Part shown: in pieces, positions 8,074 through 55,134 of the stretch | How the letters are laid out: each line of letters begins with the position of its first letter | How positions within the stretch are numbered: the first letter of the stretch is position 1 | Assembly (NCBI RefSeq): GCF_001669775.1 | Contig: NZ_LXWK01000015.1 | Span: forward strand, 310,001 to 374,000 | Source: Rheinheimera sp. SA_1 | Lineage (GTDB): Bacteria; Pseudomonadota; Gammaproteobacteria; Enterobacterales; Alteromonadaceae | Length of the DNA stretch: 64,000 bases | Direction of reading: 5' to 3' | Program-made: the position numbers and the translations under genes | Notes under the pieces: generated by a model | The model's input: only the letters and a program-made list of their open reading frames with translations | The model's database searches: none | Told to the model about the DNA's origin: nothing

Positions 8074-9044
8074 TTGTGTCCGAACAGTCCCTTTATCCAC
8101 AACTTAAGGCCTTTGTTTAAAATCTCTTTTCGAAGCTTAATCGCCCACTGCATTTTATATTTGAAATAATAACGGACTTTAATTTCCACCAATCCATAAC
8201 GAACCGATGACAATAATTCGGTAAATGACATTGGCAGCTGTTGCATGGTGCGCCGGTAAAAGGCCTGATTATGCAAATTGCGTTCGTTCATCAACCCCTG
8301 ATGTTTATCGACAAATTGCGCTTGTGCGTCCAGACGTTTGGGCGAATGGGTGATACGGCCTAATTCATGACCAACATGCACCACATAAGTTGCGTCAGAT
8401 AACCGCAGCGCCGGGCCATAAGCCGCGACCATCCGCAACCACATATCGTAATCCTGAAAAGCGGCCAGCGTTTCGTCAAATCCACCTTGTGCCAACATCC
8501 GGCTTTTACGCACTAAGGCCTGATTTGATAAGCAATGCACATCCAGTAATTCTGGTAAGCGAACAATTTTTTCTTCCGGGTAAAGTTGCTTTCGAATCGT
8601 GCCGTAGTCCCAGAAATAACTGGAACAAACACAGGAATATTGATCGTCATAGGCATTCATCAAGCTTGATAGCCGATTGGGCAAAAACTCATCGTCATCA
8701 TCAAGGCCGGTAACAAAGTCGCCGGCAGCGGCTTTAATCGCCAGATTTCGCGCAGCACAGGCGCCCTGACCCTTTTCCTGACGGAACAAGCGGATTTTTG
8801 GGTTGTCGCCATACAATTGATTCAGCACTTCCCAGGTATCATCTTTCGAGCAATCGTCGACGATCAGCAGCTCGTAATGGGGGTAATCCTGTGCCAATAC
8901 CGAGGCTATCGCCCGCTGCACCATCTGGCTGCGGTTGTAGGTGGGCATATACACGCTAATAAGTGGTGGCGAAACCACGGTCGCACTGACTGAATGTTGA
9001 TCTGACAAAGCTGTAGTCTCTTGAATAATTGTTATACCCGTCAT
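8070..9044 (-). CDS. Family 2 glycosyltransferase
   Basis: A cytoplasmic GT-A transferase. The N-terminal domain has LISVYMPTYNR, the nucleotide-binding LLIVDDCSKDDT and the metal-binding DDDDEF. The probable start is the ATG at 9044 (324 residues). The frame stays open to 9191, but that extension is encoded by an ERIC-like repeat (9033-9206) and is not protein-like. The chosen ATG itself lies just inside the repeat end, in the context AAGGATGACGGG. Downstream starts (TTG or GTG just before the conserved domain) are possible. The C-terminus ends in basic amphipathic stretches that could touch the membrane. Stop overlaps the start of the chain-length gene. Sugar donor unknown. Confidence 0.8.
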   Translation of the reverse strand: MTGITIIQETTALSDQHSVSATVVSPPLISVYMPTYNRSQMVQRAIASVLAQDYPHYELLIVDDCSKDDTWEVLNQLYGDNPKIRLFRQEKGQGACAARNLAIKAAAGDFVTGLDDDDEFLPNRLSSLMNAYDDQYSCVCSSYFWDYGTIRKQLYPEEKIVRLPELLDVHCLSNQALVRKSRMLAQGGFDETLAAFQDYDMWLRMVAAYGPALRLSDATYVVHVGHELGRITHSPKRLDAQAQFVDKHQGLMNERNLHNQAFYRRTMQQLPMSFTELLSSVRYGLVEIKVRYYFKYKMQWAIKLRKEILNKGLKLWIKGLFGHK

Positions 9045-9206
9045 CCTTGAAGATTCGGGGTTGTTGCCTTCGTTCGATCGCTGAAGCGTCAGTCCGACCC
9101 AGTCACATAGAACAGCTATGCTCTGGGTCGGACTGGCGCTCCAGACTGCCTTACTTGTCGCGGTTCCACCGTGGCCATCCCGCATCTTCAATGATTTTCG
9201 GTATAT
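9033..9206. repeat. ERIC/IRU-like palindromic element, copy 1 (174 bp, extended form)
   Basis: Ends TATACCC...GGTATA form an outer inverted repeat (TCATCCTTGAAGATTCGGGG at one end, complement of CATTGAAGATGCGGG at the other). The centre has the ERIC core pair ACATAG...CTATG inside a long stem built from CAGTCCGACC and GGTCGGACTG. The left arm is extended compared with the 128-bp copy at 36300. The element separates wecG from the GT2 gene inside one operon and supplies the likely GT2 start codon. ERIC elements are known from enterobacteria and vibrios as MITE-like repeats that are transcribed with their host genes. Confidence 0.85.
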
Positions 9207-20728: not shown

Positions 20729-20870
20729 TATACCCAAAATCATTGAAGATTCGGGTAGGCGACGAGTAAGCGAGACCCCAGGAGCATAGCTGTCTATGTG
20801 ACGGGTCGGACTGACGCTTCAGCGAGAGAGCGAAGGCAACAACCCCGAACCTTCAAGGATGACGGGTATA
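20729..20870. repeat. ERIC/IRU-like element, copy 2 (142 bp)
   Basis: Begins TATACCCAAAATCATTGAAG and ends GGATGACGGGTATA, with a central CAGGAGCATAG...CTATGTGAC stem. It fills the gap between convergent lysR and recD. Its last base directly precedes (on the plus strand) the complement of the recD stop, so on the minus strand recD reads TGA followed at once by TATACCC. It may serve as a convergent terminator. Confidence 0.88.
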
Positions 20871-36299: not shown

Positions 36300-36427
36300 T
36301 ATACCCAAAATCATTGAAGATGCGGGTAGGCGGCAACTGAGTGAATCCCCAGGAGCATAGTTGTCCTATGTGACTGGGGTGAGTGAAGGCGGCCAACACC
36401 CCCGAATCTTCAAGGATGACGGGTATA
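36300..36427. repeat. ERIC/IRU-like element, copy 3 (128 bp, canonical length)
   Basis: The closest copy to the classic 127-bp ERIC. It starts TATACCCAAAATCATTGAAG and ends GGATGACGGGTATA. The core contains GTGAATCCCCAGGAGC and CTATGTGACTGGGGTGAG, which match, apart from few bases, the core that defines the enterobacterial ERIC primer sites as I know them. It lies between the convergent ychJ-type gene and the 36428-36898 gene; the latter's TAA stop abuts TATACCC directly. Confidence 0.9.
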
Positions 36428-48744: not shown

Positions 48745-48887
48745 TATACCCTTCATCCTTGAAGATGCGGGGTTGTTGTCTTCAGTCGCTCGCCCCAGTC
48801 ACATAGGACTACTATGCTCCGGGCCGGGCTGGCGCTCCAGTCTCGCTCCTTCGTCGCCTACCCGAATCTTCAATGATTTTGGGTATA
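48745..48887. repeat. ERIC/IRU-like element, copy 4 (143 bp)
   Basis: Begins TATACCCTTCATCCTTGAAG and ends CAATGATTTTGGGTATA. The core pair CAGTCACATAG and CTATGCTCCGG is present, and the outer arms include CCCCAGTCAC. It fills the gap between the convergent yejM and 48891-49190 genes, five bases past the yejM stop and three bases before the stop of the other. Confidence 0.88.
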
Positions 48888-51235: not shown

Positions 51236-53695
51236 TTATTTTAGCCACTCTACCGCTTCGCGCGCTGGCATTGGCCTGGCGAACCAATACCCCTGGCCAG
51301 CATCACAACCCAGCTCCGTCAACAATTTGCGCTGCAGACTGGTTTCAATACCTTCAGCAATCACCTTTAAGTGTAAGGTTTTGGCCAGGGTAATAATGGT
51401 GTTCACCACCGGGTTTTCCTGGATCCGCGGCCGGATCCCGGCAATAAAAGTGCGGTCAATTTTTAATACATCCAGTTGAAATTCATGCAGATAACTTAAG
51501 CTGGAATAACCAGTACCAAAATCATCCAACAGCACTTTCACCCCGGCATCGCGTAAATTATTGATACTAATTTTTGCCTGGCCGATTTTATCAATTAACG
51601 CCCGCTCGGTGATTTCTATCGCCAGATAACTTGCTGGCACTCCAAGTGTACTAAGCAACTCTAACACTTTGTCAGCAAAATCTATTTCCGAAAAACTCCG
51701 ACCTGAAATATTCACGCTGACATAAAATTCCGTGGCGTAATCAAAGCGCCAACGCTGGATTTGTTCAACCGCAGTGCGCACCACATACAAATCAATCTGA
51801 CTCATCAAACCCAGCTCTTCCGCCAACGGAATAAAATCGTTCGGGGCAATAAAACCACGGGATGGGTGATGCCAGCGGATCAAGGCTTCGAAACCGGCGG
51901 TATTTTCGGTCGCTAAATCAATAATAGGTTGATAATGCAATATAAATTGCTGCTGTTGCAGGGCGGTTTTTACTTCCTGTTCCAGCTGATAGTTTTTTGT
52001 GGTTTCTAAATCCATCTCGGTACAGAACAACCGCCATATACCCCGGCCATCTTGTTTGGCCTGATACATCGCGATATCGGCCTGACGGATCAATTCATCG
52101 GTATCAATATCTTCGGTCAGGCAATCTGCAAACGCGATACCGATACTGGTCGAAGTTTGCAGCCGATGTTGTTTCAGTTGCAGCGGAATTTGCAATTTCT
52201 CAGCAATGCGATCAGCTACTTCGGTAATATCCGCCAGCGTTTTCACGTCTTCCAGCAGCACCGCAAATTCATCCCCCCCCAGTCGCGCCAGGGTATCGTT
52301 TTGCCGTAGACAGCTTTTCAGCGCATTGCCCACGGCAATTAAAAATTCATCGCCAACCTGATGACCCAGGGTATCGTTGACCATTTTAAAACGGTCAAGA
52401 TCGAGGTACATCACGGCAACGACTTTATCCGGAAAACGTTTGCGGCGTTTAAAAGCGTGATTAACCCGATCGATAAATAAAATGCGGTTTGGCAGATTGG
52501 TCAGTGCATCGTGTAACGCCTGATGCAATAAGCGTTGCTGTACAAATACCCGTTCCAGTGCGCTGGAAATATGGTGCGACACGAAGGTCAGCAGCTCGAG
52601 ATCTTTTTGATCATAGGCCACGCTGGCTTCATAACTTTGTACCACCACCACGCCCCGTACCGCATCACCGGAGCGAAACGGTACTCCTAACCAACTTTCC
52701 GGCGGTGAGCCATAAGCGGTAATTTCTTTAGTCCGATCAAACTCTTCCAGCAACTGCCGATCTGCAAGCAGCGGTTTATCGCTGCGAAAGACATAACCGG
52801 TCAGGCTGTTGGATAAAATCTCCTTGGGGTAAATGGTTTCCGGACTGATGTGTTCAGTGGTGTCGGCAAAGTAGGGAAAATGCAGGATTTCTTCCTGATC
52901 ATCGTACAAAGCAATATAAAAGTTTGGCGCATAAATCAGCGAGTTCACATTGTGGTGAATTTGCTGATAAAAGGCATGAAAATTAGTGGCGTCGTAACTG
53001 AGCGAGGCAATATTAAACAACGCTTTTTGCACCAGCTCGGCATATTCCAGTTTTTTAATCGATTGTTCCAGCTGGGCTAAATCTTGCAGTTTGCGCAAGC
53101 GGCTGCTCAGGATCGACGCTACATGCTGCAGAATTTGCTGATGATGTTCATCAAAAAACCGCGCCTCCCACTGCTCACAATCGATCACTGCCAACAACCG
53201 GCCTTGATCCAAGACCGGTACTGCCAGCTCAGATAACCGCTCTGACACATCCAGCAGATAGTGTGGCGATTGCCGGGTATCGGCGACTAACACCGGCGCT
53301 TTGGTTCTGGCGCATAAGCCAACAATACCCTGACCGTATTTCAACTGACCAATGCCCTGATGCTCCGGCACATCACGCGATCCCACAGCTGCGACCCGCT
53401 GCAGCGTCTGTTCCTGCTCATTACAGCTAAAAATTGCACAATCTTCAAAACCCAGCGCAGCAGCAATTTGCTGAGCGACAAAGCGATAAATAGCCGCTTC
53501 GGTCATCAGCTCGTTCAGTTGCAAAGCCAGTTTATTGATCAGATGCAAAATGGTGGTTTCGCGTTGGAGCGCCAGATTTTGTTGCAGTAAAGCCAAACGT
53601 TGTTGTGACAACTGCAGGTTATCTGCCTGCAGTTGCTGAACCTTTTCTGCCTCGGCTGCAGTTGGCGTTGAATTACCGTCCTGGATGCTGGTCAT
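51236..53695 (-). CDS. GAF-GAF-GGDEF-EAL protein
   Basis: About 819 residues from the ATG at 53695. Residues 15-45 form a coiled coil. Two GAF-like domains cover about 65-200 and 235-385. The GGDEF domain has GGDEF at 473-477 and an I-site RxxD at 464-467. The EAL domain has EALIRW from residue 603 and DDFGTGYSS further on. Both active motifs look intact, so the protein could be a cyclic di-GMP synthase, phosphodiesterase, or both. The frame extends to 53773 inside an ERIC-like remnant; the ATG at 53695 has no strong ribosome site, so the start is uncertain. No membrane segment: a cytoplasmic sensor. Confidence 0.87.
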   Translation of the reverse strand: MTSIQDGNSTPTAAEAEKVQQLQADNLQLSQQRLALLQQNLALQRETTILHLINKLALQLNELMTEAAIYRFVAQQIAAALGFEDCAIFSCNEQEQTLQRVAAVGSRDVPEHQGIGQLKYGQGIVGLCARTKAPVLVADTRQSPHYLLDVSERLSELAVPVLDQGRLLAVIDCEQWEARFFDEHHQQILQHVASILSSRLRKLQDLAQLEQSIKKLEYAELVQKALFNIASLSYDATNFHAFYQQIHHNVNSLIYAPNFYIALYDDQEEILHFPYFADTTEHISPETIYPKEILSNSLTGYVFRSDKPLLADRQLLEEFDRTKEITAYGSPPESWLGVPFRSGDAVRGVVVVQSYEASVAYDQKDLELLTFVSHHISSALERVFVQQRLLHQALHDALTNLPNRILFIDRVNHAFKRRKRFPDKVVAVMYLDLDRFKMVNDTLGHQVGDEFLIAVGNALKSCLRQNDTLARLGGDEFAVLLEDVKTLADITEVADRIAEKLQIPLQLKQHRLQTSTSIGIAFADCLTEDIDTDELIRQADIAMYQAKQDGRGIWRLFCTEMDLETTKNYQLEQEVKTALQQQQFILHYQPIIDLATENTAGFEALIRWHHPSRGFIAPNDFIPLAEELGLMSQIDLYVVRTAVEQIQRWRFDYATEFYVSVNISGRSFSEIDFADKVLELLSTLGVPASYLAIEITERALIDKIGQAKISINNLRDAGVKVLLDDFGTGYSSLSYLHEFQLDVLKIDRTFIAGIRPRIQENPVVNTIITLAKTLHLKVIAEGIETSLQRKLLTELGCDAGQGYWFARPMPAREAVEWLK

Positions 53696-53762
53696 TGAAG
53701 CGGAATATCCGTTAACTTTTATCAAGTTATAACACAGTTCCGCCGCAATGGTAAATTGCCTC

Positions 53763-53890
53763 CCCTTCATCATTGAAGTTGCAGGGTTACTGCCACTTCG
53801 TGGTGACCTTGCTCTCTCGCTGGAACGCCAGTCTCGCTCACTTGTCGTGGTTCAAAGGTGGCTATTTGGCTACATCATTGATTTTGGGTA
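53763..53890. repeat. Degenerate ERIC/IRU-like element, copy 5
   Basis: Reads CCCTTCATCATTGAAGTTGC at one end and GATTTTGGGTA at the other, the same termini as the other copies, with an inner GCTGGAACGCCAGT-type stem but no GAGCATAG/CTATGTGAC core. It overlaps the 3' end of cfa by 16 bases and reaches the extended frame of the GGDEF-EAL gene. Confidence 0.7.
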
Positions 53891-55134
53891 GATCCCCAAG
53901 AGCGATTGCCCGGTTTGGTTAGCACCATATGTACGGCACTGGTGGCCCGTTCTAAAAATCCGCCTTCACAATAACAAAGGTAGAAGTGCCAGAGCCGCAC
54001 AAAGCGGTCGTCATAGCCCAGCTGATGCACCGCATCGCGTGCCGCCATAAAGTTACTGCACCAGTCAGCAAGAGTTTTGGCGTAATCAAATCCAATGTCC
54101 TGCACCTGCCGGATCACTAAATCGGTGTGGTTCGCCACGGCAGTCGCCATGCGTACCATGGAGGGTAAGCAGCCGCCTGGAAAAATAAACTTCTTAATGA
54201 AATCAACTTCTTTTCGGTAAAACTCATACCGCTGATCGGCAATAGTGATGGCCTGTAATACCATCAAGCCATTGTCCTTTAACAGGCTAGCGCATTTTTT
54301 AAAATAGCCCTCCAGGTATTCATGGCCAACCGCTTCGATCATTTCGATCGACACCAGCTTGTCATACTGTCCACTGAGTTCGCGGTAATCCTGAAACAAT
54401 AAGGTAATTTTATGTTGTAAACCTGCGGCTGCTATTTGCTCCGCGGCGTAGTCATGTTGTTCTTTCGAAATGGTGGTGGTGGTGACGCTACAGCCGTAAT
54501 TACGTGCGGCGAAAATCGCCATACTGCCCCAGCCGGTACCAATTTCCAGCAGGTGGTCTTGTTCGGTGAGCTGTAACTTTTCACAGATCTGCTGCAGTTT
54601 ATACTGCTGCGCTTCTGCCAGCGTGCTTTCAGGCGTCGGATAAACAGCACTGGAATACATCATGCTTTGATCCAGAAACAGCTGATACATGCTGTTGCCC
54701 AAGTCATAATGCGCAGAAATATTTTTCTTCGATTGCGATACCGTATTTCGATTACGCCAGTTCAGTAATTTCAATGCAGGTTTGCTTAAGCGCGCTAAAC
54801 CAGATTCCAATGCATCCAGTAACGCGGCGTTGCGGGCAAATAATTGCACCAAACCGGTCAGGTTGTCGCAGCGCCAATGGCCTTCGATATATGATTCTCC
54901 GGCGCCGACCGAACCGCCTAACACCAGCTTCTGATAAAAAGCGGCGTCAACCACAGTCAGTGTGACGCGCAGCGGCGCTTTGCTATCGCCAAGCAGTTGT
55001 TTGTCATGGTCTTCAACCAGCTCAATACACCCTTGCTGCAGCTTCCCCAGATAATCCAGCATCAATTTGCGGCAGATTTTGTCGAGCGTTCCCAGATCCG
55101 CAAGTACCGATGGCTGTGAGAGTGAAAATGTCAT
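53875..55134 (-). CDS. cfa: Cyclopropane-fatty-acyl-phospholipid synthase Cfa
   Basis: SAM-dependent methylation of unsaturated phospholipid acyl chains. 419 residues. SAM-binding motif is LLEIGTGWGSMAIFA (about residue 198); KNISAHYDLGN, QDYRELSG, EMIEAVGHEY and FIKKFIFPGGCLPS are the standard downstream motifs. It is the last gene of the ybgA-phr-NTF2-FAD-DUF1365-cfa operon, and its ATG overlaps the DUF1365 stop. The C-terminal residues (about GSTQNQ) and the TGA stop are encoded by an ERIC-like remnant, so the original end was probably different. Confidence 0.93.
   Translation of the reverse strand: MTFSLSQPSVLADLGTLDKICRKLMLDYLGKLQQGCIELVEDHDKQLLGDSKAPLRVTLTVVDAAFYQKLVLGGSVGAGESYIEGHWRCDNLTGLVQLFARNAALLDALESGLARLSKPALKLLNWRNRNTVSQSKKNISAHYDLGNSMYQLFLDQSMMYSSAVYPTPESTLAEAQQYKLQQICEKLQLTEQDHLLEIGTGWGSMAIFAARNYGCSVTTTTISKEQHDYAAEQIAAAGLQHKITLLFQDYRELSGQYDKLVSIEMIEAVGHEYLEGYFKKCASLLKDNGLMVLQAITIADQRYEFYRKEVDFIKKFIFPGGCLPSMVRMATAVANHTDLVIRQVQDIGFDYAKTLADWCSNFMAARDAVHQLGYDDRFVRLWHFYLCYCEGGFLERATSAVHMVLTKPGNRSWGSTQNQ

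Follow-up and report, generated by a model that had tools for sequence, protein, structure and literature searches.

The cyclopropane-fatty-acid synthase gene cfa of this Rheinheimera genome ends in codons supplied by a mobile repeat. Very probably an ERIC element inserted at the cfa stop codon before the split between this species and Rheinheimera riviphila, adding five residues and a new stop while the old C-terminus was retained. The window, i.e. the whole stretch of DNA that was analysed (64,000 nucleotides), contains the following features:

53875..55134, minus strand: cfa, cyclopropane-fatty-acid synthase family protein, 419 aa (ORF translation and Pfam CMAS PF02353)
53878..53892, minus strand: C-terminal extension STQNQ, five ERIC-derived codons TCT ACC CAA AAT CAA, the first being residue 415, the stop position in 19/19 element-less congeners
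53875..53877, minus strand: TGA stop codon from the ERIC left end (TGA is codon 6 in 65/74 full-length copies)
53762..53892, minus strand: diverged ERIC element without the core hairpin, its left end within cfa (nhmmer profile; absent in 19/19 element-less congeners)
51236..53773, minus strand: downstream GAF-GGDEF-EAL gene; the longest ORF begins in ERIC, whereas relatives share a conserved start, the ATG at 53695
36300..36427, plus strand: canonical full-length ERIC copy used as reference (profile match; 78.9% identity over 128/128 bases to E. coli ERIC)
9033-9205, 20729-20870 and 48745-48887: ERIC copies elsewhere in the window (profile match)

On the minus strand the 3' end of cfa reads ...AAACCGGGCAATCGC TCT TGG GGA TCT ACC CAA AAT CAA TGA, giving a C-terminus KPGNR-SWG-STQNQ-stop, and the CMAS domain (PF02353, E 1.8e-84) covers residues 134-399 of the 419 and ends before the tail. 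As predicted from the reading frame, Cfa would be produced in the cell with the five additional residues. The sequence-only reading had assigned the end of Cfa, at 53875-53890, to an ERIC-like remnant termed copy 5. Positions and sequence were borne out, the TGA lying at 53875-53877 and the tail codons at 53892-53878 on the minus strand. Copy 5 is also a true member of the ERIC family: with a profile built from the genome's own copies, positions 2-125 of 128 align from end to end to 53891-53762 with an E of 6.7e-6 (nhmmer), an earlier profile from 30 copies having failed to recover it (E 1e-3). The word remnant is fair as well, since the ERIC core is gone, and the same core-less layout is found in R. 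riviphila. Furthermore, neither outer TA survives in copy 5, the right end being GGG-GAGGC and the left outer TA now TC. An Rfam search of the window returned only a tRNA and nothing ERIC-like, and a scan for promoters and terminators around the cfa element gave none above chance. For the downstream GAF-GGDEF-EAL gene, the longest ORF opens within the element (MMKGRQ...), while element-less relatives start it at 53695, and automatic annotation could assign this gene a false N-terminus from the repeat.

ERIC is an imperfect palindrome of ~ 127 bp forming one long stem-loop. The window copy at 36300-36427 matches a repeat of E. coli, which we take to be ERIC although the E. coli records annotate no feature at that place, with an E of 4e-20 and matches in 5375/5426 E. 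coli genomes. An intact 128-nt copy folds at -56.7 kcal/mol (z -6.70), i.e. into the long stem-loop of the family, unlike copy 5, whose fold is weak (z -1.67). Full copies begin with TATACCC and end with GGGTATA, the frequencies of the outer bases in 74 full copies being 0.92 for T and 0.96 for A at the left end, and 0.91 for T and 1.00 for A at the right end. Left-end matches number 139 in this genome against 1 in a reversed control. All 22 genus-group genomes contain such matches, with 139 here, 113 in R. riviphila and between 2 and 38 in each of the remaining 20, counts which depend on a pattern derived from this genome's subfamily; their unevenness suggests a recent burst. Two copies of the window, at 9033-9205 and 20729-20870, are long variants (142-173 bases) that contain additional palindromes, of the CTGGAGCGCCAG type in 9033-9205, and the added pieces resemble modular hairpins.

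Cfa was sought in 40 relatives and in all 22 genomes of the genus group, where it is present in 21. Among the 20 other cfa-bearing genomes, the element is found at cfa only in the closest relative, R. riviphila KYPC3 (G005), and is absent in 19. In each of these 19 the stop codon (TAA in 16, TGA in 3) aligns exactly with residue 415, the first element codon, and none carries STQNQ. The proposal that a repeat had been adopted as coding sequence hence stands, the comparison with element-less relatives having found the same C-terminal residues in 0/19. The R. riviphila protein ends KPGNR-ARV-STQNH-TAA, and its stop is followed by a core-less ERIC fused head to tail with a second ERIC (L002), compared with a single ERIC after cfa in this genome. 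Both species have in common the TCT codon, the core-less body and the right junction GGGGAGGC, which points to a single insertion predating their split; the tail is found in these two species only. The empty cfa site can be rebuilt only approximately, as the outer TAs are lost and TGA, the stop in 3/19 relatives, contains no TA.

ERIC targets TA, and the stop codons TAA and TAG contain this dinucleotide. After an insertion at the TA of such a codon, translation enters the element in one fixed frame that begins with TAT. From the left end this stop-codon frame is TAT ACC CAA AAT CAT TGA (YTQNH*) and from the right end TAT ACC CGT CAT CCT TGA (YTRHP*). Codon 6 is TGA from the left end in 65/74 full copies, and TGA or TAA from the right end in 71/74; early stops are rare in the remaining two frames, with at most 5 of 74 copies per frame.

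The same event is seen in other genes. We examined 101 distinct ERIC copies of this genome (110 loci and the window), and ORFs with at least 80 upstream codons enter an element in 18 cases, of which 8 follow the stop-codon frame. Seven of the 18, all real genes, were compared with relatives: Cfa, L055, L114, L129, L144, L116 and L132. Among the other 11, L119, L163 and one L153 case look like non-coding frames, and the stop precedes the element in L168 and in the second L153 case. Exact stop-codon insertions amount to four (Cfa, L055, L114 and L144). The zinc alcohol dehydrogenase L055 ends LER-DTRHP*, and its orthologues stop exactly at element codon 1 in 14/14 other genomes that have one, a count that leaves out a distant paralogue in G004 (L201). 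The GH1 glycosidase L114 ends SRS-YTRHP*; among 21 relatives, 20 have their stop within two codons of this point, and in the two closest the match is exact. The glycosyltransferase L144 ends LLE-YTQNH*, with an exact stop match in R. riviphila but not in three distant relatives. Joined by eye, the flanks of L114 give AGC TAG, against ACC TAA, and those of L144 give GAA TAA TCTGGAATT, against GAT TAA ACTGGAATT in R. riviphila. Both retain a single TA, as a TA target duplication leaves, the exception being L055, whose joined flanks do not restore TAA (outer bases GA...TC). These bases are complementary changes at the two ends of the L055 element, and L040 is similarly symmetric (TAATACCC...GGGTATTA); palindrome-templated change, or else a different target, may lie behind this. 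In three further genes the insertion lies upstream of the stop: the amidohydrolase L129 (VYSHHP*), the aromatic amino acid lyase L116 (LYPSSLKMRGC*) and the DUF192 protein L132 (tail of ~ 20 residues). After the lyase gene, the old 3' end that was displaced (GTATCAGGAATAA) can still be made out ~ 17 bases past the ERIC. A scan of R. riviphila covered 63 copies (60 stretches accounting for most of its listed places, together with L002) and gave 8 cases. One copy of the 63, L323, fits the pattern, with a predicted gene ending VV-YTQNH* and joined flanks GTA TAG, and in L308 and L339 the stop comes before the element.

Together with the filled and empty sites, the frame suggests how the cfa tail would have arisen. 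In the ancestor of this species and R. riviphila, an ERIC, a non-autonomous TA-targeting miniature element, would have landed in the cfa stop codon, and the ribosome would then have read past the displaced stop into the left end TAT ACC CAA AAT CAT TGA, adding five residues before stopping. Later, TAT would have become TCT in both species, and CAT-TGA would have changed to CAA-TGA here and to CAC-TAA in R. riviphila. As neither the catalytic domain nor the original C-terminus was damaged, the insertion would have been tolerated, and it was probably neutral. We infer transposition by an IS630-type transposase, with TA as the target at cfa. A PF13358 search of this genome found no intact IS630-type transposase and one broken DDE_3 reading frame, on C19.

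A more far-reaching view, and an unlikely one, is that both ERIC ends in this Rheinheimera lineage are soft-landing cassettes adapted to stop codons, with a built-in stop kept by selection. If so, an insertion into TAA or TAG in either orientation would add only five residues and gene-end insertions would be harmless. Two components of this view were considered separately. A selected built-in stop is not supported: in the congener G016 many copies lack the left-end stop (of 38 places counted by eye, 15 have TGA, 22 TGG and 1 TGC), and this stop sits within the terminal inverted-repeat stem. A special preference for stop codons is rejected for the present: 319,340 bases of the genome hold 159 stop codons with TA and a further 2784 TA where no gene was called, so that stop codons make up 159/2943 or ~ 5.4% of the TA sites at which an insertion would be tolerated, an expectation based on crude gene calls (at least 150 codons) that counts short genes as intergenic; the 4/101 exact insertions fit this TA content.

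It is very unlikely that the YTQNH-type tail, or ERIC RNA at the 3' end, was retained as helpful, for instance in protein stability or control of mRNA decay. Four of the five tail residues are identical in the two species and the stop position is kept, despite a cfa DNA identity of 86.6% (1088/1256 bases) and a rearranged sequence after the stop, but this comparison covers just 18 bases in two species. Likewise, a review (PMC10969869) describes a 3'-end ERIC in Yersinia enterocolitica that alters transcript levels via an RNase E site, but the structure of copy 5 is degraded (z -1.67 against -6.70), which makes a strong RNA role at cfa doubtful, and selection is unnecessary for the observed number of stop insertions.

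The sequence-only reading had further supposed that the insertion replaced the original C-terminus of Cfa. An element landing inside the coding region with loss of the old terminal residues is rendered highly improbable by the relatives. Indeed, the SWG preceding the tail is unlike that of all relatives, but these three positions are variable, with ARV in R. riviphila and endings HQV, QPV, QPL or NKI elsewhere, and the number of residues from KPGNR to the element equals that from KPGNR to the stop in 19/19 element-less relatives. The three residues after GNR thus persist and only the stop codon was displaced, the outcome being a five-residue extension. That the Cfa end resembles the repeat by chance, as the shortness of the match when limited to 15 bases could suggest, is next to impossible given that the profile aligns from end to end (E 6.7e-6) and that R. 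riviphila carries the same core-less element, and is ruled out by the filled versus empty orthologous sites.

An event of this kind is already known, fusions of ERIC to gene 3' ends having been published in 2007, and cfa is a well documented case, ordinary but instructive. In that work (Delihas 2007, PMC2759123), ERIC, IRU or RU-1 are joined to the 3' ends of genes that have lost their normal stop, as in the E. carotovora amidase ECA3499 and threonine dehydrogenase ECA0168. These cases are like cfa in having ERIC at the 3' end, a lost stop and a C-terminus longer than that of relatives; moreover, the ECA0168 tail as given there, YTRHTSS..., is in the frame that yields YTRHP* in Rheinheimera. 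However, the tails reported there are longer, with 13 to 34 ERIC residues, and ERIC of the E. coli type contains an open frame of 42 codons (PMC2759123), whereas in Rheinheimera both ends mostly close at codon 6 and leave a five-residue tail. According to two further papers, ERIC has TA ends and a target duplication (PMC2229807), and a Photorhabdus relative of ERIC is tied to IS630-type transposons of the CCC subtype with TA targets (PMC6267812). The latter elements, MITEPlu5 / MITEEc1, share the TA target and TA duplication but belong to a different genus, and the paper regards coding frames within them as mis-annotation (PMC6267812). In Coxiella burnetii Dugway, QMITE2 similarly provides the C-terminal residues of enhC from the 3' end of that gene, but is an unrelated element adding 33 residues (PMC5896051). 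The review PMC10969869 also cites Rickettsia palindromic elements, which occur in coding genes and serve as protein sequence but are of a different element family. Neither the fixed five-residue tail nor the Rheinheimera ERIC was found described in the literature searched, subscription papers excluded.

The cfa gene offers a clean filled-site and empty-site case of a mobile repeat turned into protein-coding sequence. A TA-targeting element that lands in a stop codon leaves a predictable tail, here YTQNH or YTRHP. This frame rule accounts for clade-specific C-terminal tails, calls for caution among annotators, and can be put to the test wherever a genome carries many copies of ERIC or of another element that targets TA.
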